From the NCBI GenBank assembly GCA_016617785.1, contig JADILM010000001.1, forward strand, positions 4,526,001 through 4,590,000: a stretch of DNA of 64,000 nt, in the 5' to 3' direction. Below the pieces are notes generated by a model, which had not been told where the DNA came from, searched no databases, and saw only the letters and a program-made list of their open reading frames with translations. Both the position numbers and the translations under genes were made by a program. Source of the DNA: Sporobolomyces roseus (Eukaryota > Basidiomycota > Microbotryomycetes > Sporidiobolales > Sporidiobolaceae). Shown here piece after piece: positions 4,823 through 57,435 of this stretch (within the stretch, counting starts at the first letter, position 1; every line of letters starts with the position of its first letter).

Positions 4823-6444
4823 TCATCCAAACACAAATTCATCGTCGACTTTCATCTCTTCCTGATTCGAATCCTTTCCTCGAGTTCCCTCTCCGTCTTC
4901 TCGATTGGGCGCAGGATTCGTCGCATAGTTCTGTGGTTGAGAGATCTGTGGTGGGAGAGGAGAGCGGCAAGGCGAAAGGATGGCGTGCATAGCAAGATCC
5001 TCGTCGATCGACATTGCGGGAGAGGATAGAAGTCGACCAAGGATCGAGGGAGTACCTGAACGGAGGATCGGCGCTTCGCTTGAGCCAAAGTTGCAGGTGA
5101 CGAAAGAGTGATCGTCGGCTTCGACTGAGAGAGGTCGAGGTCGAGGTAAGAAGTTGAGCTCAAGTTTGCTGAGATTCGATTCGGTGAGAAGCGGAGGGTC
5201 TCCTTCTTCTGATGAGGGAGTTTCGAGTTTGGTTGGAGCTTTTGACTGAGGTGGAGGACGGATGCTGAGATTGGAACGAGAACAGGTTTGAATGGGTTCG
5301 AAAGGAATGTCTGGATTGACTTGACGCCTATCAGGAGTCGGAGGTTTCTCGAGCTCTTTGCCTTCATGGAGAATCTTGCAGGTGAGCTTCCTACGTTTGC
5401 GTTTGTTTCTGTTCAAGTCGCTGACGAGTTGAGGTGCTTGAGCGATTCCAACGTCGAAGAGGGCGTAAGAAGATTCAGGAAGATGATGAACCTTGAGGCC
5501 CGTGTGGTACGGAGTGAAGCGAAGGAGCCGAGCTTCGACTTGCGCTCGAGTACTCCTTTGAGGCAGACCTTCGAGTAGAAGACGAACGCGACTCCCTGAA
5601 GGAGGCGGTACCTTTCTAACGACGATCTTCTCCGGTTCGTTCTGTCTTGCGAGTCGTCGGAGCCGTTTGTTTTCCTTCTTTCGTTTCCATTTAAGCTCGT
5701 CAGCTATATCGATCGGTAGAGGGGGCATTCGCGCGCATTCGGCGAGAATACGGTAGTAGGCGGGAATGGGCGAAACTGATCGCGAATCGAGTGTTGCTCG
5801 AGTTGACCAGCCGGGGGACGAGAGTGATTTGTCAGCGCGCGAAAGGTTCGGAGTCGAGGGCTGAGGGGGATCTGTCTGATTGTTGGTCGGTGAAGGGAAT
5901 GAAGGTGAGGAGACTTTCGAAGGGAGAAGATGTTCTTCGATCCAAGCAGCGGCTTGTTGAGAGTCGAGGGAGAGAAGGTGACGAGCGTCGATAGCTGTTA
6001 GGAAAGGGCTCAGTCTATCACGCTCGCAACCGAGGAACGAAAGGCTAGCTATACCTTCGTCTCTCTTCGACTTTTCCCAATCGAGAAGAATGTCGAATGC
6101 CTCGTTTCCCGTTTCTGAAGCGACCATAGCAATCTCTTCCCATCCATAGTGAGCTCGCGATAGAAGCAGTAACTCGAGGATGAGTTTATCGATTTGAGAA
6201 AAGGGCGAGTGAGCGAGAATTGTAGCCAGTGCCGAGTAGCCATTCTGCGAGTCTGTTATTGAGCTTACTAGGTGAGAAGTAGCTCATTCAGTCTATAGAA
6301 AGGTAGAGCAGGCTCACGCTTGTTGTTGATAACTTGCTCTAGGCAGTCATCTTCTTTCATCTTCGCCAACGTGTGGAGTACTGACGAGACGTCCTGCTCT
6401 TTTGTGGCTAGTACGAGTTGATCTGGAAGTTCTTTTGCTGTCAT
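4823..6444 (-). CDS. Ankyrin-like + RRM family protein, copy A
   Basis: This is the most divergent member of the 12-copy family, about 500 residues in three exons. Exon 1 (6318-6444, 127 nt) starts MTAKELPDQLVLATKEQDV and ends in INNK with the family donor. Exon 2 begins with HSQNGYSALATIL and holds the ankyrin-like helices (LILELLLLS). Exon 3 opens with the family signature in degraded form (DARHLLSLDSQQAAAWIEEHL). A disordered linker and one weak RRM follow, with an RNP2-like VRLLLEGLP and an RNP1-like SSYALFDV. A basic patch (RNKRKRRKLTCKI) closes the RRM, and the C-terminus is Ser/Pro-rich and acidic, ending DDEFVFG. There is no second RRM. The usual SWKG motif is altered to SQNG. It lies head to tail with copy B, 307 bp away. 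RNA binding is inferred from the domain. Confidence 0.75.
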
Positions 6445-6751
6445 TGAGCGTAGCTTTCCTGTCGCAAAGGAGTCGAAAGATGGAAAGTTAGAAGAAGAGG
6501 AAAGAAAGCAGTTTCCGCGTTTCGTCGATTCCTTTGTCTCGTTCCCTTCGATCTTGAAAGCCCAGTCGAGCGCTCTCTCCAGGCAGCAGTGAAGGGGAAT
6601 GTGGAGTAAAGGCATATTACAAGATAAAAAGCAAAGTTACTAAAAGTCGATTCGCAATCCTTACTTCGTTCCGTCAATTCATCGATCAATAGCATCTCGG
6701 CATGAACTCGTAAAGCACAACATCCATCTTCATTCGTCCTGTTCCTACCCC
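6445..6751. other. Intergenic spacer between family copies A and B
   Basis: This 307-bp gap holds the 3' end of copy B and the promoter of copy A. I see no additional gene. Confidence 0.35.
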
Positions 6752-8229
6752 TCAACGTCGACTTCGCTTCCTTTCTTTCTCCTCCACTTCATCCCAGTCT
6801 TCCTTCGTATCTCTCGACTCCGATTTCCTACTTCGCTTGACCGGACTCTTGCCAGGAGATACACGATTCGAATCTTGCACTTTCAAGTGATGAGTTTGTT
6901 GGCTGATCGGATTGGGTTTGGAAAGTTCTGAGTTGTGGGAAGCAGCGAAAGGAGTGGGTAACGTTCGAGTATGGTGACCTTGAGGAATTGGCGCGAAACG
7001 AGGTTCCGCATGAGGAGCTCGCAGCGAGAGTGGTGTGAATCGTTTGCAGCTGATCTTCGACCCTTGTACAGTTTTCCCGTGAAGCGCTCCGAGAGCGAGC
7101 TGGACCTGATCTGAAGGTACATCAACGAAAGCATAAGTTGGCAAGTAGGACGTGTGACAGAGGATCACTTGACAGTCGACCTTGATGTCTGTGAAGAGCG
7201 TCTTGAGATCGGCAGCTGCGAAATAGGTAGGGAGGAATGAAAAGTTCAAGCGAGTCATCGTAGTCGAAGAAGATGTTGATGAGTTTGAAGATGTTGAGGC
7301 GATAGAGGTCGATGTCTCGCGAGATACAGGAGGTGTGGGAAGGTAGGACGAAGGTTGGGTGAGGTGACGAGGTGGTGAGTACTGAAAGAGGGGGAAAGTG
7401 ACAGGAATGATTGTTCGAAAACGCTCGCTAAATCGAGATCTCGGGTCGACACTCGGTGAAGAGGGAACGCCTGTAGGTTTGAGGTACGTAGGATCTAGGC
7501 GAGAGAAGCGATAGTTGGGTGAGGGAGATCTGGTTCGAGGAGTTGGAGCATTTGATCGAGAAGGAAGTTCGGGAGAAATCGATGGAGGTTTCGAAGCGGA
7601 TTCTGGTTGATTCGTTACTGTATCGGTGAGAGTTGTAGAGAGGAGTGAGCAGGACGGGGGGCGCGAAGGAGGATCGCCACACCCAGTGAGAGATGAAGCG
7701 TTCGGAGGAGGTTCGAGATTCGTGTCAATCCATTCTCCAGCTTCTTCAAGTGAGACCGAGAGGAGGTGGCGAGCATCTCGAGCTGTCGGATTCGCTTGTC
7801 AAGTCAAGCGGGTGGCTTCTGAGTAAGAGAAGAGGAAGAAGGACACACCTGCTTGTTTACCAGAGCTCTCCCAGTTCATCAAGACTTGTAACGCTTCCCT
7901 GTTTTCATTTATCGAACTCTCTGCTTCTGTTTGGATCTTTGTGCCTCGTAAGAGGAGTAACTCGAGGATTACTCTGCGAAGTTGAGTAAGAGGAGATTTG
8001 ACGATAGATTCGAGAGCCGAGCAACCCTTCCAAGAGTCTACAGGTGGACGTCTCTAGTCAGCTAGCTTCTAGAGAGTCTTTTGAAGCAAGCGGTGGACTC
8101 ACGCTTGTTGTTGATAGCTTCCCTCAAACAGTTCATTTCCTTCATCTCGTTGAGCCAATACAACACGTACAAGATCTCTTGTTCCTCCGTTGCTACAACG
8201 AGTCGATCTGTGAGCTCTTGATGTTTCAT
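6752..8229 (-). CDS. Ankyrin-like + RRM family protein, copy B (single RRM)
   Basis: This is a three-exon member of about 470 residues. Exon 1 (8103-8229, 127 nt) starts MKHQELTDRLVVATEEQ and is almost the same as exon 1 of copies D and J (LYWLNEMKEMNCLREAINNK). Exon 2 carries the SWKG ankyrin-like block. Exon 3 is one open frame from the signature helix (DARHLLSVSLEEAGEWID) through a long Ser/Thr/Pro linker. Because the linker lacks Met it can look broken, but I checked the frame codon by codon. One RRM follows, with RNP2-like LNFSFLP and RNP1-like PTYAFVDVP. The protein then ends in a basic tail (VKRSRKSESRD, KERKRSRR). The second RRM of other copies is missing. About 470 bp of its upstream DNA is shared in inverted orientation with copy D. 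Confidence 0.78.
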
Positions 8230-9050: not shown

Positions 9051-10291
9051 TTATCTACCTGATACCCTCCTCCTTCGTCTTGAACGAGCTCCGTCTCTAC
9101 TTGAACCCGTCTCTTTCCTATCGTACGCTACTCCACATCTCAGTGTCTGACCCTCGAGTATCATTCCGTTCACTTCGTCCAAACACCAATTGAGGTCTGT
9201 CGCTGGCACGTCGATGAATGCGAACGTTTTCCCTCTTTTGCAATCGTAGTGGATGATGGTTGCCTCAAGACTTATCCCGAGGAACAGAACTTGCAAGTCG
9301 ATGTCGGTGAAGTGATGTGGGAATCTTGCGAGATTGAGTCGAATGAATCGGATGGGTCGCTTTGGTTCAGGATGAGGGAGGGAGATCGGAGAGGTCGTCG
9401 GTGAAATTCCGAGTAGGGAAGGATTGGGGCGTTTGAGTGAAGTCGCAGGTGAGTTGCTGCCTAACGAGATCCGAATTTTCGATGTGTGAAGTGAGTTCGG
9501 GTCCAAATCAGCACTGTTGGGGCTTGACTTGATCGTCGGATTGAGTAGTGACGAGGAAGAGATCGATTCGGTTTCCGGCTCCGACCAGGCAAGCACACTG
9601 ATCACGTATCTGTCCCAGTCGCTGAGGGAGCCTTTGAATGCTGAAGGAGCGGAGCTGTCATGCGAAGGGTCGTCCGGGGAGGAATGCAGAGGCGAGGGTT
9701 TTTGTAGCGGAAGTGTGGGTAGTGGGCCTTCGGCGGTAAGGAATTCGACGTGAGGAGGGCGAGGGAGATTCTCATCAACCCACTCGGCAACCTCGTCCCA
9801 CGGTAAAGATAGGACATGTCGTGCCTCCGAGTCTATCAAACAGTAAGTCTGTGAAGCTTGAAGTTGCGCCTGGATGAGAAAAACACTTACCGTATTCAGG
9901 TGCAATCCTTCGCCAATTTACAGAAGTTTGATGATCACACTCATTGAAACACCAATTCCGCCGACTCGTGTCGGTCCCTTCCGGCAGGACCGATGCTGCT
10001 CCTTTCTCTAGTAGGATGCGGATGATGATTCCGCGAAGCACAGAGACCGGCTGAGGGTGAAAAGCGATGACAATGAGAGCGGAGCGCTGCTTCCAGGAAT
10101 CTGTCGAGCTATTCAACAGTCAGTTTAGTCCTTACGTGCTCTGTATAAGGTAGATCAGACTTACGCTTGCCGTCAATCGCTAGTTCAAGTATTCCTTCCT
10201 CCTTCATCAATTGCAACCACCAGAGCACAAAGAGGACATCCTGCTCCTCACAAGCTTGCACTAAACGATCAATGAGCTCTTGAGGTTCCAT
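9051..10291 (-). CDS. Ankyrin-like + RRM family protein, copy C (single RRM)
   Basis: This is a divergent, short member of about 390 residues and the last copy of the left cluster. Exon 1 (10165-10291, 127 nt) reads MEPQELIDRLVQACEEQDV and ends in IDGK, as in copies I and L. Exon 2 starts HSWKQRSAL and is ankyrin-like (IIIRILLEKGA). It continues with an unusual Cys/Trp-containing stretch before the intron at about 9891. The best in-frame acceptor puts the start of exon 3 near TYCLIDSEARHVLSLPWDEVAEWVDENLP, which carries the family signature. One RRM follows, with RNP2-like IRLNLARFP and RNP1-like KTFAFIDVP. The protein ends in a basic tail (RDGARSRRRRRVSGR). There is no second RRM. The exon 2/3 junction is the least certain part. 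Confidence 0.72.
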
Positions 10292-10523: not shown

Positions 10524-10530
10524 AAAAAAA
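10524..10530 (-). terminator. RNA polymerase III T-run terminator of the tRNA
   Basis: Seven consecutive A on the plus strand give a run of seven T on the minus strand, starting a few bases after the tRNA discriminator base. This is the standard Pol III termination signal. Confidence 0.75.
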
Positions 10531-10534
10531 CGAC

Positions 10535-10618
10535 TGCTCAGTGGCGGGATCGAACCGCCGACATCAGACTGAACCAGTGGTATTAGGTCTGCATCATAAC
10601 CAGCTAGATCAACCGAGC
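10535..10618 (-). tRNA. tRNA with a 10-nt intron, anticodon AAT (isoleucine)
   Basis: The minus strand folds into a complete tRNA. The acceptor stem is GCTCGGT/ACTGAGC, seven pairs with one G-T. There is a D arm around AGCTGGTT. The anticodon stem is CAGAC/GTCTG and the T arm is GGCGG-TTCGATC-CCGCC, with discriminator A. The anticodon loop is 17 nt instead of 7, which fits a 10-nt intron after position 37. The bases after T33 are then AAT, giving tRNA-Ile. The tRNA call is strong. The isoleucine assignment depends on the intron being at the canonical place. It sits directly beside the promoter of family copy C. Confidence 0.85.
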
Positions 10619-22498: not shown

Positions 22499-22781
22499 GT
22501 TGTTATTCTGAGGGGTTTCTGAGGTTGTGTGAGCGGGCTGTGAGCAGATCAAGTGAGATGAAGTGAAGGGAAGAAAGGAGAGAAGAAATCGCGAGAATTT
22601 CGCATAGTCGTTTTCTTAACTTCTCGAGAAAAGCTGCTCTCGCTCACTTCTGCTCTCGACGACGGGACGATCAGAGAAACGAAGAACAGAGAAGAGTTTA
22701 ACTGATTTTGCGATCTCTATTTGACAAGTTTTCAAGCGTAAAGACGTCTTTCTTACCCCTCGTCTATATTTCTACCGTGCT

Positions 22782-33527: not shown

Positions 33528-33758
33528 GTTGGTCCCGGCTGAATGAAGGCGGAGAGGCGGAGAGGTGGAAAGGAAAGGAAAAGGAAAGGAAAGGAAAACG
33601 GACTGTTTTTCCGTTTCGTAACAAAAGTCTTTCGCAAGACTCTCGATTAACAAACCTCACAGTCTTTGCAAAGATCTGACTATCCCATAAAAGGCAAGAT
33701 AACATGGAGAAAGTGATAGATCGACGACAGGTTCTCCCCTTTCGCTGCAATCCCTGTC

Positions 33759-37261: not shown

Positions 37262-37529
37262 AGGGAGATCCCAAACTGTGCGAAGGGAATGGGAGGAGGA
37301 CTTGAAAGTAGCAAGCTTTGAGCGAACCTCGGAGGGCAATTGAAAACTTTTTCGAAACTATGTTCTGATCGAGTTTGCCTACGTTTGACTCGATTGAATG
37401 ATCACCTGAATGCTAAATGCTGTCTACGAGAGTCTTTGTAGAACGAGAGTTGTTGCGATTTTGAGCGAAAGATTGGTCGATTTCTCACTCTTCACTTCTT
37501 TTCATCGGTTCGGCTCCGGAGTACTGTCA
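37262..37529. other. Spacer between copies D and E
   Basis: This 268-bp spacer contains the terminator of D and promoter of E. It is not shared with the region upstream of copy H, so the large inverted repeat begins close to the E start codon. Confidence 0.4.
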
Positions 37530-39253
37530 ATGACCCCTCAAGAGCTCACAGATCGCCTGGTAGTAGCCACCGAGGAGCAAGATGTCCTCTACACTCTCCA
37601 CTGGCTTCGAGAGATGAAACAGCAAGACTGCTTGGAACAAGCTTTCAACAACAAGCGTGAGTCCACTGATACTCCTATATAGCTAAGCAAGATACTAACT
37701 ATGATGTGAGCAAGCGACTAGACTCCTGGAAGGGTTACTCAGCGTTGGAGTCTATCATTGAATCTCCCTTCTCTGAACTCCGCAAATTCATCCTCCAAAT
37801 GCTGCTCTTGCAAGGTGTAGATGGTCAATCGAAAGAATCAATGGATCTAGCGATGGAGTGTAAGAATTTGGAAGTGTTGGGAATGATCTTGACTTGGGAC
37901 GCAACTGGTCGAGGAGCAGGTGCGTCTCAACGGGACTGTATCTGCTATCCGTTACGATACTCACCTTGACAGAGTATAGCTGGAGATGCTGCTCGACTGT
38001 TCGATAGGACTCTGCAAGAAGCTGGAGATTGGATCGATTCGAATCTTCCAACTCCTCCCAATTTCGATTCTCTCACTGGCTTCAAACCTCTACCTGCTCC
38101 TCCCTCACCTCTCTCAGCTCGATCTTCCGATTCTTTCGATTCTCCTGTCGAACCCCTAACTCCTCAAGTTTCGAATGAAATCGCAAGATCGAACGATTCA
38201 CTTTTCGTCAAAGAAGAAGAAACCGAATCGAATGCACCGAGTTTACGAGATTTCTCGCCTTCCCCCTTCACTTCAAAGCAACAAGATCGATACCGCTTCT
38301 CTTCCTCGCTTTCTCCAGTTCCGAGCTCTCCCCTTCCCCTTCCCTTTGAGAATCCGTTTCAAATCCCTTCTCCCGTCGAGCGAGAAGAAGATCAGCAACA
38401 GGCCTTGCCATTGAGATCTGTACTCAAACGAAGACCCCGTCAATCCTCGAACTCAGACACTCGACCTATCGAGGATCAAGAGGATGAGATCTCTCCCCCA
38501 AGTCTCGTTTCTCCAGTTCGACTCTGTCTTCGACGCCTCCCTTTCGGCTTCACACCTCAAGATGTCTCTTCTCTAGTCGAATCGATTGGCGTGAAGTGCC
38601 TCGTCGATCACTGTTACACAGCGGGAATGCCAGCTTACGCTTTCATTCAAGTCGAAGGAGATCAAGTTCAAAATTGTCTTTCAAACCTTGATCAAAGACA
38701 AGTGAAACACTGTCGAATCAGTTGTCACATCGCTTCTCCAGATCGAAATCCTCGTCGTTCTTTCTCTCAGCAACGTCAGAAATGGTCTCCTCCTCAAATC
38801 GATCCTTTCTTCTCCCCCGGTTCTTCCTCGAATTCAGAGCCCTCTTCCTCCACCTTGACTCTCCCTCATCTAAAAGAACACAGCCTCTTGATTCTCAACC
38901 TTCCTCTCAACGAAACCCTCGAAGCTAGACAATTCCTTTCGAACCTCCCAGCCTACTCGATTCACCTCCTTCCTTCCCACTCTCAAGCAGTTGCTTTCCT
39001 TCGACTCGAATCAGAAGAGAAAGCAGACGAGATCAAGAGTTTATGGAATCGATGTGTCGTCGATGGAAGGTGTTTGGAAGTTGTCAATGCGAAGAGTGGT
39101 TTTGGAGGGAAAGAAGCTGTTGATGCTCATTTCGGATTGAAGGAGGAGGGAGCGAAAAGGAATGGGAATGGAAAGAGGAGAATGAGTCAGCAGGAGATGT
39201 TTGAAGCGTGCAGGAGTCAAGGCGAGGGAAAGAGGACGAGGTATTCGATCTAG
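37530..39253 (+). CDS. Ankyrin-like + two-RRM family protein, copy E
   Basis: This 532-residue member has exons 37530-37656, 37722-37919 and 37980-39253. Exon 1 starts MTPQELTDRLVVATEEQDVL. Exon 2 has HSWKGYSALESIIESPFSEL and LQMLLLQGVDGQ, the clearest ankyrin-like pattern in the family. Exon 3 starts with the signature DAARLFDRTLQEAGDWIDSN and PTPPNFDSLTGFKPLP. RRM1 shows VRLCLRRLPFGF and MPAYAFIQVEGD. RRM2 shows LLILNLPLNET and QAVAFLRLESEEK. The C-terminus is basic (KRRMSQQEMFEACRSQGEG). It is the intact partner of copy H, with very high identity through RRM1. Confidence 0.85.
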
Positions 39254-39597
39254 GAGTTTGAGGTTTCGGGAACGAGGAGCCGTCGATTCAGCCAGAGCAG
39301 CTGGAGGGGGACGAAGATTGGCTTGTGGAACGAATGAAGTCGAGGTGGATGTACCATCGAAAAGTTCAATGTAGTGAAACGAAGAAATTAGTGTCTTTGC
39401 GAAATTAGTATTCCGAGCGAGTCACTTTCACCTGTTTGACCCCAATCCGCCTGCTTGACACTATCTCATCTTCTCTCATTGCTCTACGCACCGCTTTTAT
39501 GTCGAAGTCGGAGGAAATGTCCCAATTTGAGCGAAGTTTGACGTTTCATTCTCTCCCTTCACTTTTCAACTCGCTTATGGCCCTCGAAACGGCTCGA
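39254..39597. promoter_or_regulatory. E-F intergenic region
   Basis: This 344-bp region is almost identical to the corresponding G-H region at 47322-47681. It contains the promoter of copy F, including a shared block reading MTPIRLLD in an open frame upstream of the family start. That frame could extend the protein, but the start used here (39598) matches the other copies. Confidence 0.45.
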
Positions 39598-41284
39598 ATG
39601 ACTCCGCAAGATCTTACAGACCGACTCGTCGTAGCTTCAGAAGAACAGGACGTTCTGTACGTCGTGCACTGGCTTCGAGAGATGAAGAATCAAGATCGCC
39701 TCGCGGACGCTATCAACAACAAGCGTGAGTTCATCCTTACTCTCCATAGATTCCAGCAGATCAAGAGACCATCGCAGCCCAGTCGCAGACTCTTGGAAAG
39801 GTTCAACCGCTCTTGAAACAATCATCCTTCAAACTTCTTTCACTTCCATCCACAAGATCATTCTCGAGATCCTGCTTTTATCAGGTGCAGACACAGATAC
39901 AGAAGATATGCTCGAGCTGGCAATGGAGAAGAACAATGCTGGAGTGGTTGATTTACTCTTGAGTTGGGAAACTTCTGGTCAACATTCAGGTTCACTTGAT
40001 CTCTCTGCTCCACTGCCCATTCATTGATCGAAGCGTCGAGCAGAAACAGATGCAGCACGTCTCCTTCAATTACCCCTCGAAGAAGTTGCCGACTTTATCG
40101 ACTTGAATCGACTGCTACCCGAGAACCCTGAATCGCTCACAGGTGAAGGACCTCTACCTCATCCTCCTTCTCCCTCTCTGCTCTCGCTGGACGAGCAATC
40201 AATGAGCGCCCCTACCGATTCAACGTCTCTCTCGAACTCCTTGAGTTATCTTCTCGCCTCGAACAAGAACGACTCGAATTCCTTTCTCGACTCAGACGCA
40301 GATACATCCATGAGCCCAATGGAACCAGCTCTATCACCTGAAGAATCTCCTGAAGCAGCTCCTGCGTCGTCTCCTCCAAGTTTGTCGTCTCCCGAATCGA
40401 ATCAGACTTCCTTGACTTCCTCTTCTCCCCAAATCAAGACCGAGATGTCGATAGATCCGAGACCACCTCGACGAAATTCTTCAGGCGCTACCGCTTCTAC
40501 AGCTATCAAAACTCCCCCTCCCGACTCGAATCTCGCACGTACTCCTCCAGCTCCAGTCTCTCCATTCGTTCCTCGAGTCAGGCTTCACATCGGTCGTATA
40601 CCTCTCAACTCGCACCCACTCGTGATCGGGAAGCTATTCAAGGATATCGGAGTCGATGCTCGTATCACTCGCTGTCACAACAAAGTCGATTACGGATACA
40701 CTTTCGCAGATGTTCCCTCCGATTCCGTCCATTTCTGTATTCAAAAGTTGAACTGTTTTAATCTCGATGGATGTACCATCACTTGCTCTCTCGCATCAGG
40801 ACAAACTATCCAAGTCGAACAGAACCCCTTCTCTTTGCCTCTTCCCGTTTCGATTCCTCGACCTCCAATTCCGATTCCCATTCCCACAGCTCGTCCTCCT
40901 ATCCCAGTACGACCTTCTACTCCTGCTAGAACTCATTCCTCGACAGCAAGGAATCTTCTCGTCGTCAATCTCCCTTTAATCGAAACAAATGAATCTCGAT
41001 TGCTCCTCTCGAATTTCCGCTTCGTCGACATCTTCCCTTTTCCACTCCGAGACCAACGAGTCGCATTCGTCAGAACCTCATCAGAAGTCGAAGCAGATCG
41101 TATAGTCAGCATGTGGAATCGCTGTGTTGTTAGTGGAAGGAACTTGAGAGTTGTGCATGTTGGAAAAGGGTTGTTTGCGAAAGAAGCGATTGATCAATAC
41201 TTTAGGAAACAGGACGAGTTAGATCAGCCTTTTGAAGAAGAGCAGAGTGGGAAGACGAGGAAGTTGGATTGTTTCGTGAGGTGA
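39598..41284 (+). CDS. Ankyrin-like + two-RRM family protein, copy F
   Basis: This 522-residue member has exons 39598-39724, 39789-39989 and 40044-41284. Exon 1 starts MTPQDLTDRLVVASEEQDVL; an in-frame ATG at 39577 could add seven residues. Exon 2 has HSWKGSTALETIILQTSFTS and LEILLLSGADTDTED, a good ankyrin-like match. Exon 3 opens AARLLQLPLEEVADFIDLNR. RRM1 has VRLHIGRIPLNS, YGYTFADVPSDSV and FNLDGCTITCSLASG. RRM2 has LLVVNLPLIET and QRVAFVRTSSEVE. The tail is KQDELDQPFEEEQSGKTRKL. It is the intact partner of copy G. Confidence 0.85.
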
Positions 41285-41609
41285 AGCGAGGAGACGAGAG
41301 AGAAAAGTGTTGCTTGAAAATACGGCATAGAAACGCAATCGCTTGTTTTTGTACAATTCAGTTTGTTTCTGACCGCTTCTGAAACCTATCGCTCGTCGGA
41401 AAGAGCGTAGCGATGTCGAGTGATCCTCGCTCACGTGACCACTTCGCCGTGAAACTGAGGGAAAAGAACATAGAATTTACGAATCTGGGTATCGGTACTG
41501 ATATCGTCTCGCCACTCCCCGCTTCTGCTCTTCTCGCTTCATCGGTCCTCTTCACTCCTCACTGCTCCCAACCTCTCTTCGATCCCTCTTTTCCAGAATC
41601 CCTTCTTCG
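41285..41609. other. Inner boundary of the inverted repeat and convergent spacer
   Basis: Sequence up to about 41345 is shared with the right arm. The rest is unique and separates copy F from the DUF2235 gene. No gene is seen. Confidence 0.4.
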
Positions 41610-43683: not shown

Positions 43684-44176
43684 AGTGAGTGTTGGAGGAT
43701 CGGGAGAGGGACGGTTAGAGGGAAAGGAGTGAGGAAGGGAGGAGGAGAGCGAGCCGAGATGGGAGTGCGATGGAAGTCAGGTAACGAGAGGTGAGAAGTG
43801 ACTGAGAGGCGAGAGATGGAGGAGGGAGAAAGAAAGGAACCAGAAATAGGAGAATGAAACGGACTCCGACAAAGTTCCGCGGTCTTTTGTTTTTGAAGTC
43901 AGCATGAGCGAAAAAAGAGCTCGTTCAGGTGTTACAGAAGCTTGGATAGTATCAGAGTGGTGGAAGAGGCGAAAGGAACGAAAGCCACTTGGAGCCCGAG
44001 CGAAGATTGAGGACGAAGCAGAAAGTTCCGTCGACATTGCTCTGTACACTCTCAACAGCTTGCACAGATACGCCTAAGCTATCTCTCAAGCATCCAAATG
44101 AGTCAGGAAAGACACGAGAGAGGGAAGATTCAGTAAAGCGAGCGTACCTTGCAATACCTCGAAATCGAAAACTCGT
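43684..44176. other. Spacer upstream of the DUF2235 gene
   Basis: This 493-bp gap contains the DUF2235 promoter and the 3' end of the OGFr-domain gene. No other feature is supported. Confidence 0.35.
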
Positions 44177-45196: not shown

Positions 45197-45636
45197 TCTC
45201 TTGGAGCGAGATCTGGTGGTTCAGGAGTGCTGGGAACAGGTGGTGGGTGACTCAAAGATGTGCTTGTACGTATCTAGAGTATCACTGTGGCGCTAGAAAT
45301 GCGAAGTGAAGCGAGAGAGTCGGAGCGAGATGGGGGAGATGATGCAATGCTTGATGGTCTAGAGTTGATGTACGATGCTTGCTGAATACGCAGAACGTAC
45401 AGAGAGTAGAAAGTAAGACTGTAAAGGCGGTTTCGAGAAAGAGCCGACAGGCGGTGTGAGGAGAAGAAGGGAGAAAGCAAAAGTTTCGTTTCGCAACTCC
45501 TCCTCTCGAACGATTCATAGCTCTCTATCTTTCCTCAACGACTTTCCTCTGCGAGTGAGTCAAACAAAACAAGCGATTGCGTTTCTTTGCCGTACTTTCA
45601 AGCAACACTTTTCTCTCTCGCCTCATCTGCCTCACC
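45197..45636. other. Unique DNA and right inner boundary of the inverted repeat
   Basis: The promoter of the OGFr gene lies here. From about 45553 onwards the sequence is shared with the left arm. No gene is seen. Confidence 0.4.
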
Positions 45637-47321
45637 TCACGAAACAATCCAACTTCCTCGTCCTCCCACTCTGCTCCTCTTCGAAAGGTTGATCCAACTC
45701 GTCCTGTTTCCTAAAGTATTGATCAATCGCTTCTTTCGCAAACAACCCTTTTCCAACATGCACAACTCTGAGGTTCCTTCCACTGACAACACAGCGATTC
45801 CACATGCTGACGATACGATCTGCTTCGACTTTTGAAGAGTTCTGACGAACGCGACTCGTTGATCTCGAAGTGGGAAGGGAAAGATGTCGAAGATGCGGAA
45901 ATTCGAGAGGAGCAATCGAGATTCATTCGTTTCGATGAGGGGGAGATTGACGACGAGTAGATTTCTTGCTGTTGAGGAATGAGTTCGAGCGGGAGTAGGA
46001 GGTCGAACCGGGATAGGAGGACGAGCATTGGGAATGGCGAGAGGAATCGAAGGTCGAGGAATCGAAACGGGAAGAGGCAAAGAGATGCGGGTCTGTTCGA
46101 GGTGAATGACTTGTCCTGATGCGAGAGAGCAGGTGATAGTGCATCCATCAAGATTGAAGCAGTTCAACTTTTGAATACAGAAATTGACTGAATCGGAGGG
46201 AACATCTGCGAAAGTGTATCCGTAGTCGACTTTGTTGTGACAGCGAGTGAGATGAGCATCGACTCCGATATCAGCGAATAGCTTTTCGATGACGAGCGGG
46301 TGGCAGTTGAGAGGTATACGACCGATGTGAAGCCTAACTCGAGGAACGAATGGGGCGACTGGAGCTCGAGGAGTTGGTGAGAGATTCGAGTCGAAAGAGG
46401 GAGTCGTGATAGATCTGAAAGGAACAGAGATTGAAGAGTCTCGTCGAGGTGGTCTCGGATCTCTGGACATTTCGGTCTTGATTGGGGGAGAAGAGGAAGT
46501 CAAGGGAGTCTGATTCGATTCGGGAGAAGACGATACTGGAGGAGAAGACGAAGGCGCTGCTTCAGGAGACTCTTCAGGTGATATCGCTGGTACTATTGGG
46601 CTCATGGGTGTATCTCCGTCTGAGTCGAGAAAGGATTTCGAGTCGTTCTTGGTCGAGGCGAGAAGAGAAGTCAAAGAGTTCGAGCGACACGTCGAATCCG
46701 TTCGGTCGCTCATCGATGGCTCGTCCAACAATGTCGAAGACAGAGAAGGATCACGAGGTAAAGGTCCTTCACCCGTGAGCGATTCAGGATTCGAAGGAAG
46801 AAGACGATTCAAGTCGATAAAGTCGGCAACTTCTTCGAGGGGCAATGTGAGAAGACGTGCGGCATCTGTCGCTATCAAGGACGTCGATCAGTGACTGGGC
46901 AAGAGAACAACGACGTCGAGAACCAAACCTGAATGTTCACCAGAAGTTTCCCAAGTCAACAATAAATCAACCACTCCAGCGTTGTTCTTTTCCATTGCTA
47001 GCTCGAGCATATCTTCTGTATCTGTATCTGCACTTGATAAAAGCAGGATCTCGAGAATGATCTTGTGGATTGAAGTGAAAGGAGTTTGAAGAACGATCGT
47101 TTCGAGAGCTGTTGAACCTTTCCAAGAGTCTGTGATTGGCCTGCGATGATCAGCTTGATCTGCTGGAATCTATGGAGAGTACGAATGAACTCACGCTCGT
47201 TGTTGATAGCTTCCTCTAGGCATTCTTGATCCTTCATCTCTCGAAGCCAGTGCAAGACGTACAGAATGTCCTGCTCTTCTAATGCTACGATGAGTCGGTC
47301 TGTAAGATCTTGCTGAGTCAT
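45637..47321 (-). pseudogene. Ankyrin-like + two-RRM family, copy G (single-base frameshift in RRM2)
   Basis: This is the inverted partner of copy F. Exon 1 is 47195-47321 (MTQQDLTDRLIVALEEQDIL), exon 2 is 46929-47129, and exon 3 starts near ATDAARLLTLPLEEVADF. RRM1 (LHIGRIPLNC, YGYTFADVP) and RNP2 of RRM2 (LLVVNLPLIET) are intact. Compared with F, one base is missing at about 45830-45842, just after AFVRT. The current frame then runs into an unrelated tail ending at 45637. The original frame downstream is fully open and would stop at 45632. The loss is thus recent, or a sequencing error. A shortened but functional protein is also possible. Confidence 0.75.
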
Positions 47322-47681
47322 TCGATCCATGTCGAAGGTCAGAAGCGAGTTGAAGAGTGAAAAGATAGAGAAGGGGAAGAGTGAAACTTTGCTCAAATTG
47401 ACACATGTCCTCCGACTTCGACATAAAAGCGGTGCGTAGAGCAATGAGAGAAGATGAGAGAGTGTCAAGCAGGCGGATTGGGGTCAAACAGGTGAAAGTG
47501 ACTCGCTCGGAATACTAATTTCGCAAAGACACTAATTTCTTCGTTTCACTTCGTTTCACTACATTGAACTTTTCGATGGTACATCCACCTCGACTTCATT
47601 CGTTCCACAAGCCAATCTTCGTCCCCCTCCAGCTGCTCTGGCTGAATCGACGGCTCCTTGTTCCCGAAACCTCAAACTCTT
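47322..47681. promoter_or_regulatory. G-H intergenic region
   Basis: This region is almost identical, in reverse complement, to 39254-39597. It holds the promoter of copy G and the terminator of copy H. Confidence 0.45.
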
Positions 47682-49408
47682 CTAAATTGAAAACCCCGTC
47701 CTCTTTCCCTCTCCTTGACTCCTGCACGCTTCAAACATCTCCTGCTGGCTCATTCTCCTTTTTCCGTTCCCGTTCCTCTTCGCTCCGTCCCTTTTCAATC
47801 CGAAATGAGCATCAACAGCTTCTTTTCCACCCAAACCACTCTTCGCATTGACAACTTCCAAACACTTGCATCAACGACACATCGATTCCATAAACTCTTG
47901 ATCTCGTCTGCTTTCTCTTCCGATTCGAGTCGAAGGAATGCGATTGCTTGAGAGTGAGAAGGAAGGAGGTGAATCGAGTAGGCTGGGAGATTCGAAAGGA
48001 ATTGTCTAGCTTCGAGGGTCTCATTGAGAGGGAGGTTGAGGATCAAGAGGTTGTGTTCTTCTGGATGAGGGAGAATGAAGGTGGAGGAAGAGGGGTTTGA
48101 ATTCGAGGAAGAATCGGGGGAGAAGAAAGGATCGATTTGAGGAGGAGACCATTTCTGACGTTGCTGAGAGAAAGAACGACGAGGATTTCGATCTGGAGAA
48201 GCAATGTGACAACTGATTCGACAGTGTTTCACTTGTCTTTGATCAAGGTTTGAAAGACAATTTTGAACTTGATCTCCTTCGACTTGAATGAAAGCGTAAG
48301 CTGGCATTCCCGCTGTGTAACAGTGATCGACGAGGCACTTCACGCCAATCGATTCGACTAGAGAAGAGACATCTTGAGGTGTGAAGCCGAAAGGGAGGCG
48401 TCGAAGACAGAGTCGAACTGGAGAAACGAGACTTGGGGGAGAGATCTCATCCTCTGGATCCTCGATAGGTCGAGTGTCTGAGTTCGAGGATTGTCGGGGT
48501 CTTCGTTTGAGTACAGATCTCAATGGCAAGGTCTGATGCTGATCTTGTTCTCGCTCGACGGGAGAAGGGATTTGAAACGGATTCTCAAAGGGAAGGGGAA
48601 GGGGAGAGCTCGGAACTGGAGAAAGCGAGGAAGAGAAGCGGTATCGATCTTGTTGTTGCTTCGAAGTGAAAGGGGAAGGGGAAAGATCTCGTAAACTCGG
48701 TGCATTCGATTCGGTTTCTTCTTCTTTGACGAAAAGTGAATCGTTCGATCTTGCGTCTTCATTCGAAACTTGAGGAGTTAGGGGTTCGACAGGAGAATCG
48801 AAAGAATCGGAAGATCGAGCTGAGAGAGGTGAGGGAGGAGCAGGTAGAGGTTTGAAGCCAGTGAGAGAATCGAAATTGGGAGGAGTTGGAAGATTCGAAT
48901 CGATCCAATCTCCAGCTTCTTGCAGAGTCATATCGAACAGTCGAGCAGGATCTCCAGCTATATTCTGTCAAGGTGAGTATCGCAAGAACACAGCAGAAGA
49001 GTCCCGTTGAAGACGTACCTGCCTCTCGACCAGTTGCATCCCAAGTCAAAATCATTCCCAACACCTCCAAATTCTTGCATTCCATCGCTAGATCTAGCAT
49101 TTCCCTTGATTGACCATCTACACCTTGCAAGAGCAGCATTTGGAGGATGAATTTGCGGAGCCGAGAAGAAGGAGATTCAATGATCGATTCCAACGCCGAA
49201 TAACCCTTCCAGGAGTCTATTCGCGTGCTCAGGCAGTCAGTCATAGTTTACGTAGCTATAAAGAAGCAAGAGTGGACTCACGCCTGTCGTTGATAGCTTG
49301 TTCGAGGCAATCTTGCTGTTTCATCTCCGTTAGCCAGTGGAGAGTGTAGAGGACATCTTGCTCCTCGGTGGCTACTACCAGGCGATCTGTGAGCTCTTGC
49401 GGAATCAT
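47682..49408 (-). pseudogene. Ankyrin-like + two-RRM family, copy H (single-base frameshift in RRM2)
   Basis: This is the inverted partner of copy E. Exon 1 (49282-49408, 127 nt) starts MIPQELTDRLVVATEEQDVL and ends in INDR. Exon 2 has the SWKGYSALESIIESP block and exon 3 the EAGDWIDSNLPTPPN signature. RRM1 is identical to that of E over a long stretch (MPAYAFIQVEGD). At about 47865 one base is missing after NRCVVD, so the reading frame shifts to ASVWKLSMRR and ends at 47795. The original frame remains open down to a stop at 47682. As in G, this could be a recent loss, a truncated protein, or a base-call error. Confidence 0.75.
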
Positions 49409-49858
49409 TCAAGCGGTGAACCTTGTCGCTCTAGAGGATCGACGTGAAACGTGAAAAGAGAGAGAGAGAGAGAGAGAAGAAACGTGAAAAGTTAATAGGA
49501 GAGAGCGAGTTCAAGCGCTAGCGTTCGCAACCTGACTTCTTCCCGATTTCTGTCTATGCGGAAGCTACGAAGTAGTATTTCGTAGCAAATCGAACGCGAG
49601 GCCCCCTAGTATCGAGCAAATCGGGAGCCTTCGACACTTTTCCTGTTTTGCATGGCTTCGCAGATCAGTCACTTCCCTAGATATCTCGCTAGTCAGCTGA
49701 CGACTCTGATACGACCCCATGTCCAGACGAGTGTATAGAGAAGAGCAATGCATTGCAAAGCTTGTCTTTTGACCATTTCCTCTATCTCTTCGCAAAATGA
49801 CACCACACTTTCTCCCCTCAACCCCTCTTCTATCGATCTAACTACTCCTCAGTTTTCA
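49409..49858. other. Spacer between copies H and I with a (GA)n tract
   Basis: This 450-bp spacer holds the promoter of copy H and the end of copy I. A (GA)n tract of about 25 bp lies at 49456-49480. The inverted repeat ends at the H start codon. Confidence 0.4.
49456..49480. repeat. (GA)n microsatellite
   Basis: An uninterrupted run of AG dinucleotides in the presumed 5' UTR of copy H. Similar tracts occur upstream of copy I and of the glycosyltransferase. Confidence 0.8.
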
Positions 49859-51222
49859 TTAGCCATACCTCCTCCTCTTCCCTGTATCCCTCGTGAATGC
49901 CCGTGCAATCTCATCCTCGTTCTTGAAATAATAATCCACCGCTTCTTTGCCCTTCAAACCCTTTTCACCATGAACAACTTTGACCTTTGCTCCATTCACC
50001 GAGTACCCATTCCACTGCTTCTTCAGCGTGCTCGCCTCCTCGGCTGAATCGACCTGAACGAATCCGGCGGTTTGATTGCGATCAGGAATGGTAAAAGTTT
50101 CGACAAAGTAGGCAAAGTTGGTGAGGAATGCGAGCGATTCGGGTGTGCCGTAGAGTGGGAGATTGACGATGAGGAGAGTATGTGATCCGTTGATTGGAGA
50201 GATGCGAGGGGGATGAGGTAGCAGAGGAGGAACCGGTAGAGGACGAGGGGAATTTGTACGATCTGAGAGTTGAGACGGAGTGACTGCCTCGTAAGAGAGA
50301 GGGATCGGTGTCGATACGAGAGGGAACCTGTAATCGATTGAGGCGATTGCGACCGGACAGCGTGAAGTTGCGGAGAATGTCGAACCAGCAGAGCTCTCCT
50401 CAAGAATTGGATCTGCTGAATGGAACGAGATGGGCGGACGGGGCAGATGACATCGTAGCGGGACCGGAACTTCTATCACTGCGAGCTGTTTGGAGGTTGT
50501 TACGATTTCTCCTTCCTCAGGATCAATCGGGCGGTACTCTTCTAGGTCGATGACTCCGAGACTAGCAACTGTGTCTTCTTGCTGTAGTTGAGGAACGACT
50601 GTCGATGGCTGTAAAATCGCAAGTATCGGCTCGAGCGTTGGCGTGGGAGGAGGAGAAGGGGGAGCAGGGAGAGGTCTGTCTCTCGTGAGAGATTCGGAGT
50701 TCGGAGGCGAAGGAAGATTCGATTTGACCCAGTCTGCCGCTTTCTCCGATGGAAGAACCAAAAGATGTACGGCATCTCGGGCTGTTCCCCTCGTTGATCA
50801 GCCACGAACGGCGAAGGTGTAGAGAGAGAGAAAGCTCGACGAACCTTTTTCGCGACCTCCTGTTTCCCAGTTCAGGAGAAACTCCATCACTTCGCTGTTC
50901 CCGTGTTCCATACACAAATCCAGCCCTGCATCTGAATCTGCCCCTTCCAGCAGTAGGATCTCCAGGATGAGCTTGAGAAGTCGACTGAATTCAGAAAGAA
51001 TGATTGATCCGATAGCTGAGTAGCCTTTCCACGAATCTATCGACGAGAGCCAATCAGTCATAGCTTGTGGAGAAACGTGAACTGGAACTCACGCTTTCCG
51101 TTGATCGCTTCATCCGAACACTTCCTCTGCTTCATCTCGTCGATCCAATGGAGGACATACAGGACGTCTTGCTCCTTCGCGGCGACAGTCAGACGATCCG
51201 TAAGCTCCTGAGCTGTCGACAT
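49859..51222 (-). CDS. Ankyrin-like + RRM family protein, copy I (only the second-type RRM)
   Basis: Exon 1 (51093-51222, 130 nt, one codon longer than the other copies) starts MSTAQELTDRLTVAAKEQDV and ends in INGK. Exon 2 has DSWKGYSAIGSIILSEFSRL and LEILLLEGADSDAG, ankyrin-like. Exon 3 starts with LPSEKAADWVKSNLPSPPNS. The protein is about 415 residues. RRM1 is absent: a Pro-rich linker (RPLPVPPLLPHPPRISPING) leads directly into RRM2, which has LLIVNLPLYGTPE and QTAGFVQVDSAEE. The end is basic (DTGKRRRYG). It lies in tandem with copy J. Confidence 0.8.
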
Positions 51223-51534: not shown

Positions 51535-53295
51535 TCAGACGAGATCCCATTCTCCCCATGGGCCTCCAGTTCTTCCTCCTTGCGCTCGTTTCCAATCTTC
51601 CTCCCTCTCTTTCCACCCTGATGTCTCCAACTCCTTCGAGGATCTAACGGAAAGAGAGCGACGTAGCTTCTTGCGTCGATTGGAGGTGGACGTGAAGGCT
51701 GATTTCGGCTTTGAATCGTTCGTTGCCCCAAATTGATCTCGAATCGCTTCAATACCTTTCAATCCCACCTTCGCATACTTGAACTGAACCCGTCTTCCAT
51801 CGATCGAGAAGTTGTGCCAAAGATCGATCAACGAGGTTGCGGAATCGGAAGAATCGACTCGCATGAAGACGACGGACTGATCTTGATCTTCGAGGCGATG
51901 GAGCTCGTGAGGAGGAAGGTTCTGAAGAATGGCGAGTACTTCGAGTGAATGGTTGAGGGGAAGGTTGAGCATGAGGAGGTTGTGTGACGATTCATCGGAA
52001 GAGGGACGGAACGAAGAAGGACTTGAAGGTGGTTGCGAAACGGGAGGGAGAGGGAGTGGAAAGTTGTCATCGGGGTCGATCTTCGAGCGTTTGCGAGGTT
52101 GCTTCGTCTCCTCCGTGGAACGAGCGATTTGACACCAGATCGTGAAATTTTGAACCCTTTTCTGGTCAAGAAGTTTGACGCAGAGACCGGTCTGGCTTTG
52201 TGCGACATCGACGTAGGCGTAAGTTGGACTAAAGCTTGTGTGACAGATGAGCACTTTGCAGTCGACACCGATGATTGCGAACAACTCTTGTACGTCGATA
52301 GAGCGGAAACCGAGAGGTAAGTTTCCCAGAGTCAAGCGATCGATCGAAGTTCGCGTTGTAGAGGAGAAAGGTGAGGAACGAGGTGGAGACATAGCTTCGG
52401 AGACAAGTGAAGGTGGAAGTCGAGGTCTAGGAGGTGACGGCGAGAAAGCGAGAGTTCGATTCGAGTTCAAGGGAAGAGGAGCTGGCGATTGCGAGGTTCG
52501 CTTGTGCTGAGGTGAAGGGCTCAGAAGGGAGCTGCGTGCTACTTGTGGTGAAGATGATCGTGAACGAGGCGAGTCGAGATCCGACGACGAAGCCTCCTGG
52601 GCGACTGATGGGTTGAAATGATCGAGAACAGGCGAATGAGAAACCGATTCTGAAGAGAGCTCATCAACTTTTCCGCTTGCTGAGGGAGCTGAAGGTGCGA
52701 GAGTCGCTTCAAAGTTCGAAGGGATGGGCGGAGGATCGTTGAAACCGGACAACAAGTCGGGATTTGGAGGGAGAGGTAAATTCTGATCGATCCAGTTTGC
52801 CGCTTCTTCCAAGGTCGAGCATAGGAGATATTGCCCATCTTTTGCTGTTGCTCTGATCATCAGCCCTCTTAAGCCAGACGTGGAGAGCAAGAGAGGGAGA
52901 CTTGCCTTCTTCTTTCCCGGAGTTTTCCCAAGTTAGAAGAATCTTGAGTACATCCAAATTCCGCTCCTTCATCGCTAATTCCACTATCTCCTCTGAACGA
53001 GCATCTACACCATTTAGCAACAGAATCTGGAGGATTAAACGGCGAAGTCGAGTTAGAGGAGATTTGATGATGGATTCGAGCGCTGAGTAACCTTTCCACG
53101 AGTCTGCAGGAGGACGTATCTAATCAGCTAGCTTCTAGAGAGTCTTTTGAAGCAACCCCTGAACTCACGCTTGTTGTTAATAGCTTCCCTCAAACAGTTC
53201 ATTTCCTTCATCTCGTTGAGCCAATACAAGACGTACAAGACATCTTGTTCCTCGGTAGCTATAGTCAGACGGTCTGTAAGATCTTGTGAAGTCAT
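51535..53295 (-). CDS. Ankyrin-like + two-RRM family protein, copy J
   Basis: This member has about 550 residues. Exon 1 (53169-53295, 127 nt) starts MTSQDLTDRLTIATEEQDVL and is almost the same as exon 1 of B and D. Intron 1 also shares AGCTAGCTTCTAGAGAGTCT with copy B. Exon 2 has SWKGYSALESIIKSPLTRLR and LQILLLNGVDARSEE. Exon 3 opens DGQYLLCSTLEEAANWIDQN. RRM1 shows LTLGNLPLGF and PTYAYVDVAQSQ. RRM2 shows LLMLNLPLNH and QSVVFMRVDSSD. The tail is basic (NRRKKLRRSLSVRSSKEL) and longer than in other copies. Confidence 0.83.
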
Positions 53296-53534: not shown

Positions 53535-55222
53535 TCAATCGAATCTTCGCTTCTTCGCTACTGGTCCTTCGCCAACGTCCGAGTCGTCCGTTCTTCCGAA
53601 ATGCTCAAGAACCGCTTCTTCCGCACCCAGCCCTTTCCTAATAGGTACGATCGAAATCTTCTCTCCGCTAATCCTACGACCGCCGTAATGGTCGATGATG
53701 TAGTTGGCATCGTATTCCGAGTTGACACCGATGAACGCTACAGCTTGATTTCGAGATTTCAACTGTAACACTTCGCATCGGGGGAATTTTTCGAGGAAGT
53801 CGAGAGCTTGGGAAGTTTCGAGTAAGGGGAGATTCAAGATGAGGAGGTTGTACGCTGCGGGTACTGCATTGAGGGGAGAAGGAGATCGAGGTGGAGCTGT
53901 GGAACGCTTGGATAGATTCGAGAGATCGTCAAGAGGTCGGACAAAGTTCGAAATTCGAGAAGCAGAGTAATCCGACTCGCGAGATCGACGACGATGTTCT
54001 TCCTCGGGTAGTGCACGTCGAGCTACTGCACAAGTGATGACACGGTCTCCCAAACGAGTACCGTCGAGTTGTTGGATGGAATGAGATACCTGATCCGATT
54101 CGATGTCGACGAAACAAAATCGATTGAGGTCTTTGTCACGAGTACTCCAATCGACGCGGCATTTGACTTCCATGTTCTGGAAAAGGTTTTCGATATCTAC
54201 GACACGAGTACCGAAAGGCAAGCCACCGAGGTAAAGTCGAACGATGGGAAGAGCGTGTTGAGGAGATGAATCTGTTGATGTTCTAGGCATCTCTCGTCTG
54301 TACTCGGATTCGGTGAAGGCACTACGGTCGGGGAAGATCGGAAGATTGGAGTCGATCAAAGAAGCGGCAGGTGGTGATGAAGAAATGGGCGAAAACGAGG
54401 GTGAGCGAGATGGTCGAGGGGAGAAACGAGAAGATGGCGAGGAAAAGGAGTGATCATTCTCACCGGGATCGAAAGTTACTGTTTCACTTGGGAGTTCTCC
54501 TTCTTCTAGTTGGGAAGGGAGCTGTTCGTGATCATCCTCTGGGGCGAAGAGCGAAGAAGCTGTTTCGACAAGTTCCGTCGAGGATTCTGCGAGCTGCACT
54601 TGCGCTTCGAGCAATTCGTTGTCGAGAGCGGAGTGAGAAGCTTCAGCTGGAGAAGGGGGAAGAGGTCCACAGCCTGTGAGATTTTCCAGGTTCGGCGCTC
54701 GAGGCAGATTCGAATCAATCCAACTCGCTGCCTGTTCTAGGGAACATTCGAAAAGTTGAGCGGTCCCTGTTGCTGTAGTCTCATCAATCACCTGTCAGCT
54801 TTCTCAGACTCGATGGGATCTTGGAAACGAACCTGCATCTCCACCACTGACGTTCCAAGTAAGAAGTATGCGAAGGACTGCGAGGTTCTCTTTCTGCATA
54901 GCCAGCTTTTGAATCCGTTCCGATTGACCATCTGCACCTTGGAAGAGTAGCATTTGGAGGATGAATTTGCTGAGTTGAGAGAAGGGAGATTCAATGATAG
55001 ACTCCAACGCTGAGTAACCCTTCCACGAGTCTAGTCGCGTGCTCAGATCATTGTTAGATGTCTGTGTAGTTGTACGAGAGTAAGATTGGACTCACGCTTG
55101 TTGTTGATAGCTTGTTCCAGGCAATCTTGCTGTTTCATCTCCTTGAGCCAATGGAGAACGTAGAGAACATCTTGCTCCTCTGTAGCTACTATCAGTCGAT
55201 CTACTAGTTCTTGTGGAAGCAT
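53535..55222 (-). CDS. Ankyrin-like + two-RRM family protein, copy K
   Basis: This member has about 520 residues. Exon 1 (55096-55222, 127 nt) starts MLPQELVDRLIVATEEQDVL and its end (LKEMKQQDCLEQAINNK) resembles E and H. Exon 2 has DSWKGYSALESIIESPFSQL and LQMLLFQGADGQSER. Exon 3 starts TGTAQLFECSLEQAASWIDS and has an acidic/Ser linker. RRM1 has VRLYLGGLPFGT and NRFCFVDIESDQ, the best RNP1 match in the family. RRM2 has LLILNLPLLET and QAVAFIGVNSEYD. The C-terminus is GPVAKKRRFD, a basic motif that could act as a nuclear signal. Confidence 0.83.
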
Positions 55223-55500
55223 TTAAGCGTCTTTCCGAGTCGTAAAGCGTGATGAAGGGTGGAGAGTGAAAGTGAGAGCCAAAGTCTGAAAGTCGACTTC
55301 GCGAATCTGCCAGCGAGTGACCAGCAAATTAATCGAGGTTGAGGAAGGGTATAGTATGACATCGAATAAGTATACTGATAGATATGACATCAAGGTATAA
55401 GACAGCACAAGTCCGGTATGAAACAGCAAGAAGATATTCGAAAACGTCCTCATCTTCCAACTCCCTCTCTCTTCCCACTAATCTTCGTCTCCATGATCAC

Positions 55501-57435
55501 TCAGCGACCATCTCCAGCAAGTAACCGCCCAGTAACCGATGACATCCTCCTTCCTTTCGATTTCCTCCTTTGCTTCTTCTTCTCCCTCGACAATCCCTCG
55601 TGCCTTCGAGATCTCGATCTGGAGCGAGACCGTGAGCGAGAGGGTGACCTCTGACGTTTGTGAGAGTAGGTGTGACGAGATCGAGGGGAAGGAGAAGGGC
55701 TTCTTGAGTAGACTGAATCGAAAGAAGGGGATCGTCGTCTTGAATGGCGTAGTGGTGGACTAGGCGAGCGGGTACGAGCTCTTCCACGACAAGGGGAGCG
55801 ACTCCGACCTCGAGCGTAACGATCCTCTTCCTCCTCCTCCTGTACGTCTCGTCGAGATCGATCCTGATTGTAGCCGGAATCGCGTTGTCGCCAGTAGGGA
55901 GGTGGAGAAGGTTCTTCTGCTCGAGTAGCATAGCGATCATCCGAGTTCCGTGGAGGAGTGCGGGAACTGAATCGATCGTCATATGAAGGAGCGGGTTTGA
56001 TCGAAAATCGGGTTGGAAGATCCTGGTAGGTATATCTCGATTGGACTTCATACCATCGTTCGGCGTCGCACAACGCGACCTCACACCTGATTCCTCTAGA
56101 TCGAGCGTGTTTGATGCATCGATCGGTAGACATGATGGCGACGGAAACGTGGGCGAAATTGATAGGTGCATGGGCGTTGAATTGGGTCACTTCGCATCTT
56201 ACGCCGATGTTGCGGAAGAGGCGAATAATGTTGCTTTGTGCATACCGTCTAGGGAAGTCGACGAGGTGTAGACGAATCGATTGGGAGGGTTCTTTGGACG
56301 AAAGGTGGGCCGCTGAGTGCTCGGGCGGGCTGACGAGATCTTTAGCCGGATTCAATGGTGCAGCAGCACATCCCTTGATCTCGATGACTGCTTTCGGAAT
56401 CGCTTCCTCCTCCTCCTCTTGTTCCGTCTCTTTTGGGAAGAATCGATCGAGGGACGAAGGTTTCCTGTCGATTTCAGGTGAAGGAGCGCGAGAGCTATCG
56501 GGGGTTTCTGCTCTGTCGATGGGAGTAGGCGAGGAGGAGGACCGTCGACGAGGACTGGGAGAGCGAAGAGAAGCGGGAGAGGAGGGAGAGGTGGGTGAAG
56601 TGGGAGAAGTGGGAGAGGATGGCAATAATTCTGATTCATCGGAGTATGTAGTGAGGTAGCTGAGCGCCGAGATACGAATAAGGGGACGAGAGGGAGTGGT
56701 TGCTGTGATCGGTCGAGCAGAAGTAGGAATGGCCGAAGATATGTTGGCTTTCGATTCTGAGTTTTCGACGAGTTTGACGACGGGTGCAGGAGGAGGTGAT
56801 GGAGGAGCGTCCGTCGTCAGAGAGATCAGAGATGGTGAAGAGATTGCGTAAGATGAAGGACGAGCAGGAAGTGGACCATCGCCAGTCAGAGAATTGGGAT
56901 TTGGAGGTTGAGGCAAATTTGAATCAATCCAATCTGCCGCTTCCTCCAATGGCATCTCGAGAAGTTGGCTCGCGTCGATCGCTGTGGACTCTCAACGATA
57001 GGTAAGCTTCATCTCATTCGCTAGAGGAACCACCGAGAGCTCACCTTCTCCCTTTCCCACTCTTTCCCAATTCAATAACATGATAGTCGCTTCCATACTC
57101 CTCGCCTTGACTGCGAAATCCATCACTTCCGAGTCCTGACTATCTGCACCACTCAATAATAGCAGTTCCATCATGATCTTCCTCAAGCCCGTAAACTCAT
57201 TTTGTACGATCGAAGCGAGTGCACTGGAACTCCTCCAAGAATCTACAGTCGCGTCTCGAGTCAGTTCAGAGTAGCTCAGAGACCTCGATGAGAGCAGGAG
57301 AGACTCACGTTCACCGTCTATAGCTACTTCCAATAAATACTTCTCTTTCATCTCTTGAAGCCAAACCAAACAGTAGAGTACATCCTGTTCTTCGACAGCT
57401 ACCACAAGTCGATCAATGAGTTCTTGTTTATCCAT
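55501..57435 (-). CDS. Ankyrin-like + RRM family protein, copy L, with C-terminal RS domain
   Basis: This is the last member, about 600 residues. Exon 1 (57309-57435, 127 nt) starts MDKQELIDRLVVAVEEQDVL and ends in IDGE. Exon 2 has DSWRSSSALASIVQNEFTGL and MELLLLSGADSQDSE. Exon 3 begins DASQLLEMPLEEAADWIDSN. One RRM-like domain follows, with IRLHLVDFPRRYAQ, PINFAHVSVAI and IRCEVALCDAERW. The RNP1-like segment is weak. The C-terminal 150 residues are an RS domain (RARTRSPSPPLRHSRRRSPS, SRSRSRSRSRR), ending GRLLAGDGR. RS domains act in splicing and nuclear-speckle targeting. This copy may be closest to an ancestral SR-type protein, or it gained the tail separately. Confidence 0.82.

Follow-up and report, generated by a model that had tools for sequence, protein, structure and literature searches.

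A locally amplified gene family joining an ankyrin-type module to RRM heads in a sporidiobolalean yeast

Tandem-RRM proteins such as Sex-lethal, HuR, raver1 and Prp24 carry two serial RRM folds, and none of them is known to contain an ankyrin module. Ankyrin repeats and RRMs are also brought together, on separate proteins, in the basidiomycete Ustilago maydis by the Upa1/Rrm4 system, which acts in endosomal mRNA transport. The window considered here is a stretch of 64,000 bases from Sporobolomyces roseus (C1:4526001-4590000; contig C1 has 4,742,556 bases, the genome 22,396,975 bases in 15 contigs). It harbors twelve whole genes, numbered c1-c12 by position, of a family in which an ankyrin-type N-terminal module is followed by a disordered linker and one or two RRM heads. 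Like the tandem-RRM proteins, two-headed copies have serial RRM folds; a degenerate RRM2 and a poor RNP2 in RRM1 set them apart from usual proteins of that kind. A FYVE zinc finger beside ankyrin repeats is a trait of the Upa1 type; at E ≤ 1, 11 families are listed for 16 members, none of them a FYVE or other zinc finger. Protein matches include no named family, and no paper on the family was found in the open-licence PubMed Central literature (subscription journals and preprints not covered), in keeping with the first-pass annotation of this DNA, which had called the family apparently undescribed.

The genes are tentatively read as a sporidiobolalean adaptor family, in which the constant module would dock one partner and the RRM heads would be paralogue-specific, with RNAs as their most likely targets. 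The reading starts from what the analysis shows: the genes, their amplification, the folds in the models, a contrast in conservation and one head exchange. The array would then offer a natural experiment in which recognition heads diverge, become fixed, and are swapped or lost while the docking module stays constant. Standard domain models also miss the family almost entirely, which counts at least 21 genes in a yeast genome of 22.4 Mb.

A constant module and divergent heads

In the predicted structure model, residues 4-106 adopt an ankyrin fold, on the basis of a structural match of middling strength. The module consists of about three repeats and is extended by a short helical part whose end carries the motif WIDxNLPxPPNPxSLTGxGPLP. 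Pfam ankyrin models stay below cut-off in all 16 members (one reached E 0.26) and match none of five spliced modules. The ankyrin-like N-terminus of the first-pass annotation is thus present as a fold in the structure models and falls below the cut-off of ankyrin sequence models. The N-terminal modules of 21 copies match one another in 210/210 pairs (BLASTP, E ≤ 1e-3, database of 21), against 0/210 for shuffled sequences. The signature pattern is found in 20 of the 21; a lone distant copy misses the pattern but by eye reads KKAEEWINKNLPPHPNP.

The heads show the RRM fold (beta-alpha-beta-beta-alpha-beta) in predicted structure models, and their profile and fold matches include RNA-bound tandem RRMs. 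Both folds on which the first-pass annotation had made its family depend are therefore present in the models, the reserve being the middling ankyrin match. By the usual RNP motif definitions, RRM1 keeps both RNP1 aromatics in 9/11 copies and the RNP2 aromatic in 1/11, and the degenerate RRM2 has one RNP1 aromatic in 8/8 copies and no RNP2 aromatics. The RRM fold together with the RNP1 aromatics of RRM1 suggests that the heads bind RNA; RRM2 may serve a purpose other than RNA binding. Only c11 has an RRM above the Pfam RRM_1 cut-off, and a genome-wide RRM_1 scan gives 66 matches, one of them within the array.

Divergence was compared between species in five chosen orthologous pairs (c2, c4, c5, c9, c10) and within the genome among six one- or two-headed paralogues (15 pairs for the module, 10 for RRM1, 15 for RRM2). 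Median identity between paralogues is 53% in the module, 19% in the linker, 33% in RRM1 and 37% in RRM2. Between species, in contrast, the pairs of c4, c5 and c10 share 70-82% identity in RRM1 and 70-85% in RRM2, next to 63-80% in the module, and the c9 pair shares 84% in RRM2 and 74% in the module. A front end that is constant, with heads that are paralogue-specific and then conserved, is what one would expect from a shared partner with different targets. Dosage need, proposed in the first-pass annotation, is unlikely to be the chief reason for the amplification because paralogous heads are too different, their RRMs being only about one third identical.

The pair of c2 and S. roseus 7504 departs from this pattern, with 69% identity in the module and 28% in RRM1. 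Module and linker are alike in the two proteins, the RRM1 of c2 is nearest to c10 and S. roseus 7500, and the RRM2 of S. roseus 7504 is nearest to c6. Because module and linker agree while the RRM1 affinities differ, a head exchange occurred in one line or in both.

At synonymous sites, the divergence of the module cannot be clearly told from that of the heads in 12/16 pairs, so the contrast between them lies mostly at the protein level, and gene conversion is not favoured as a general cause of the alike N-terminal modules. A difference is clear in c4-c6, c5-c11 and c2-c4, with c5-c8 borderline in the opposite direction; in this comparison RRM2 of c5/c8 and c6/c7 was trimmed to the first 40 rows. 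Between these young twins (c5/c8, c6/c7) dN/dS is below 1 in the frame-intact parts; the values for their RRM2 include codons past a frame change and were left unused.

Under the adaptor scheme, the ankyrin-type module would dock one protein partner common to the copies, and the RRM heads would sit on a fast-evolving disordered linker. After duplication the heads would diverge, each paralogue coming to recognize a separate set of targets (most likely RNAs), and would then be held fixed. Copies would multiply through tandem and inverted duplication, at times swapping or losing heads.

Gene models and history of the array

The genome contains at least 21 copies, at least 20 of them within 109 kb of C1 (4513107-4622104) and one about 3.7 Mb away. 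These counts are lower bounds, obtained by searching the whole genome with four proteins and scanning C1:4500001-4639000 locally. The strong local amplification noted in the first-pass annotation is borne out; its twelve copies are right for whole genes in the window but undercount the family, since a 13th copy lies partly in the window and the genome holds more. The order along the contig is L1 and L2 left of the window, c1-c12, R1 across its right end, and R2-R6 further right. R1 is present with its 3' part (63267..64000, minus strand; open reading frame (ORF) 63267-63944), the window end cutting the gene, whose start lies at C1:4590742. An assembly artefact is unlikely, most copies being strongly divergent and many of them having counterparts in another strain.

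The lone copy (C1:773303-773644, minus strand) is diverged. A tree of N-terminal modules places it, on a long branch, with genes of Rhodotorula and Rhodosporidiobolus (support 83/89), and on this ground it may be the original gene and a candidate founder of the family.

Searching the window with ten of its ORFs (tblastn), combined with frame reading, located the twelve copies, three at 4.8-10.3 kb and nine at 35.5-57.4 kb; the outer bounds of the set, 4823 and 57435, are exact. Three-exon models fit all twelve, with identical intron sites and both introns in phase 1. Exon 1 spans 42-43 codons and one further base; the introns measure 56-66 bases (intron 1) and 53-63 bases (intron 2). Every model reaches a stop without internal stops, and predicted junction sequences (e.g. 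INNKHSWKGYSALESI) are found again in proteins annotated for Sporobolomyces roseus JCM 5353. Intron 2 of c10 has a GC donor. The two clusters of genes with one architecture, as first described, are thus recovered in full. One or two RRMs per gene is likewise correct in number by alignment, with the correction that RRM1 is absent from c9 and RRM2 from c1, c2, c3 and c12.

The left cluster lies on the minus strand. It consists of c1 (4823..6444; exons 6444-6318, 6252-6055, 5994-4823), with RRM1 recognized from alignment alone; c2 (6752..8229; exons 8229-8103, 8037-7849, 7794-6752); and c3 (9051..10291; exons 10291-10165, 10100-9891, 9832-9051), the sole RRM of c2 and c3 being RRM1. The right cluster opens with three plus-strand genes that each carry RRM1 and RRM2: c4 (35468..37261; exons 35468-35594, 35659-35859, 35913-37261), c5 (37530..39253; exons 37530-37656, 37722-37919, 37980-39253) and c6 (39598..41284; exons 39598-39724, 39789-39989, 40044-41284). 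The remaining six are on the minus strand. They are c7, the twin of c6 (45637..47321; exons 47321-47195, 47129-46929, 46871-45637); c8, the twin of c5 (47795..49408; exons 49408-49282, 49216-49019, 48957-47795); c9, with RRM2 as its head (49859..51222; exons 51222-51093, 51036-50845, 50781-49859); c10 (51535..53295; exons 53295-53169, 53103-52906, 52844-51535) and c11 (53535..55222; exons 55222-55096, 55030-54833, 54772-53535), both with RRM1 and RRM2; and c12 (55501..57435; exons 57435-57309, 57242-57045, 56981-55501), with a single weak RRM and an arginine-serine-rich tail.

The twins are part of an inverted duplication, in which arm A (c5, c6; 37529..41349, plus strand) aligns with arm B (c8, c7; 45566..49409, minus strand) at 90.1% identity over 3853 columns. 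Compared with their twins, both arm B genes switch frame within RRM2, which may reflect either decay or assembly error. Similarity of c5 and c8 starts at the start codon (37529, 49409) and their upstream sequences are unlike, whereas c2/c4 and c6/c7 have about 400 bases in common upstream.

The trees took 16/18 and 17/24 fetched proteins (row Rkra5077 of the second is P0017). In the tree of modules, 8/12 copies of the window (c2, c4-c10) share their subclade with S. roseus partners, so much of the amplification is older than the split from those partners. Pairing within a species is also found, c9 with R4 (beyond the window, C1:4616623) and S. roseus 7333 with 7353; these pairs may result from concerted evolution or from separate duplications.

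Arginine-serine-rich tails were recognized by reading translations in c12 and L1, and none as long was read in the other window copies. SR splicing factors combine such a tail with an RRM; c12 has the tail and a weak RRM, and L1 the tail without an RRM. L1 (C1:4513107-4513966, plus strand) consists of the ankyrin-type module and this tail, with no RRM by eye, and its partner is S. roseus 893.

Alternative readings of the array

Apart from one, the usual RNP aromatics are missing from RRM2, the RNP2 aromatic of RRM1 is nearly always missing as well, and there is no conservation of the basic residue and the glycine with which a usual RNP1 starts. Furthermore, the top structure matches to RRM1 include raver1, NONO and SFPQ, proteins in which some RRMs bind proteins. 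The RRM folds could thus mostly have turned into protein-binding surfaces, the genes encoding protein-protein adaptors with an ankyrin end, an RRM-like end and little RNA binding. This appears unlikely, given the two RNP1 aromatics kept in most RRM1 domains and the RNA-bound tandem RRMs that are also among the matches. A different source of doubt is the history of the locus: a two-gene block in inverted duplication, the frame changes in c7 and c8, the heads missing from c1, c2, c3, c9 and c12, and the within-species pairs c9/R4 and 7333/7353 would all be expected in a recombination-prone stretch of the contig, where copies arise and decay by duplication and function resides mainly in one or two old members. 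Such a stretch is an unlikely explanation of an array in which all twelve models reach their stop over three exons, two thirds of the copies have S. roseus partners, c4, c5 and c10 retain 70-85% identity in their heads and dN/dS of the twins stays below 1 in frame-intact parts.

The same conservation weighs on a third reading, which takes up the large local array, the head exchange, and the gain and loss of copies. In immune-receptor clusters, recognition parts that vary are attached to a signalling part that stays constant, and the array could be likened to them as an RNA-based defence or self-recognition repertoire: the fixed module would recruit one effector, and duplicated, exchangeable RRM heads would tell self from foreign or selfish RNA. 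Piwi-domain matches occur in the genome, so RNA-guided silencing may exist; however, they lie away from the array (C1:3.96 Mb and C5). That this is a eukaryotic RNA-recognition repertoire is improbable, as conserved heads in three orthologous pairs and twin dN/dS below 1 do not indicate fast conflict. For these reasons an arms race centred on the RRMs is disfavoured, and the positive selection or arms race suggested in the first-pass annotation finds no support there, orthologous heads being 70-85% identical in three of the five chosen pairs. A mating-type link was rejected as well: STE3 matches are on C11 and a homeobox match on C8, not at the array.

Relatives and neighbouring features

S. 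roseus belongs to the Sporidiobolales, as presumably do the genera Rhodosporidiobolus and Rhodotorula. At least nine members occur in S. roseus JCM 5353, 4/9 on one contig and 3/9 on another (partly from locus numbers); the matches listed also include S. pararoseus, Rhodosporidiobolus microsporus, Rhodotorula kratochvilovae and R. toruloides. These other relatives have at least one to two members per strain, compared with at least 21 in the window's genome. All relatives with an organism name are annotated "hypothetical protein"; the fragment P0021 carries no organism. They share the N-terminal module and signature helix, and most have RRM-type heads, P0013 being without an RRM by eye and P0009 apparently having three. 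The third protein search scored the 7989 candidates with most shared words, and members beyond the Sporidiobolales may thus exist. Two matches were discarded, P0022 (a Sporisorium RRM protein, 2% query cover) and P0024 (E 0.45); P0011 looks to be c11 of the window itself.

Beside c12 lies a glycosyltransferase family 2 gene (57670-59703, minus strand), 96% identical to a S. pararoseus protein over 98 residues and in the same gene order. Because the same enzyme adjoins a family member in S. pararoseus, this neighbourhood is old. The S. pararoseus model P0018 is annotated as a fusion of a family member and the glycosyltransferase, and probably represents two genes.

An Rfam scan of the window and a comparison with a plasmid collection gave no match. 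Between the arms of the inverted duplication, a gene at 42960-43776 (minus strand) matches Pfam T6SS_Tle1-like_cat (PF09994), a family of the alpha/beta-hydrolase type. An F-box-like domain is encoded at 22121-22615 (minus strand); the adjoining ORF 23037-24293 and the ORF 33048-33656 are of similar style, with no Pfam match at E ≤ 0.01. The other neighbours are ordinary: a 2-hydroxyacid dehydrogenase (11058-11597), an aspartyl protease (13996-14430, minus strand), a class II tRNA synthetase (61742-62248, plus strand) and a tRNA-Ile at 10535-10618.
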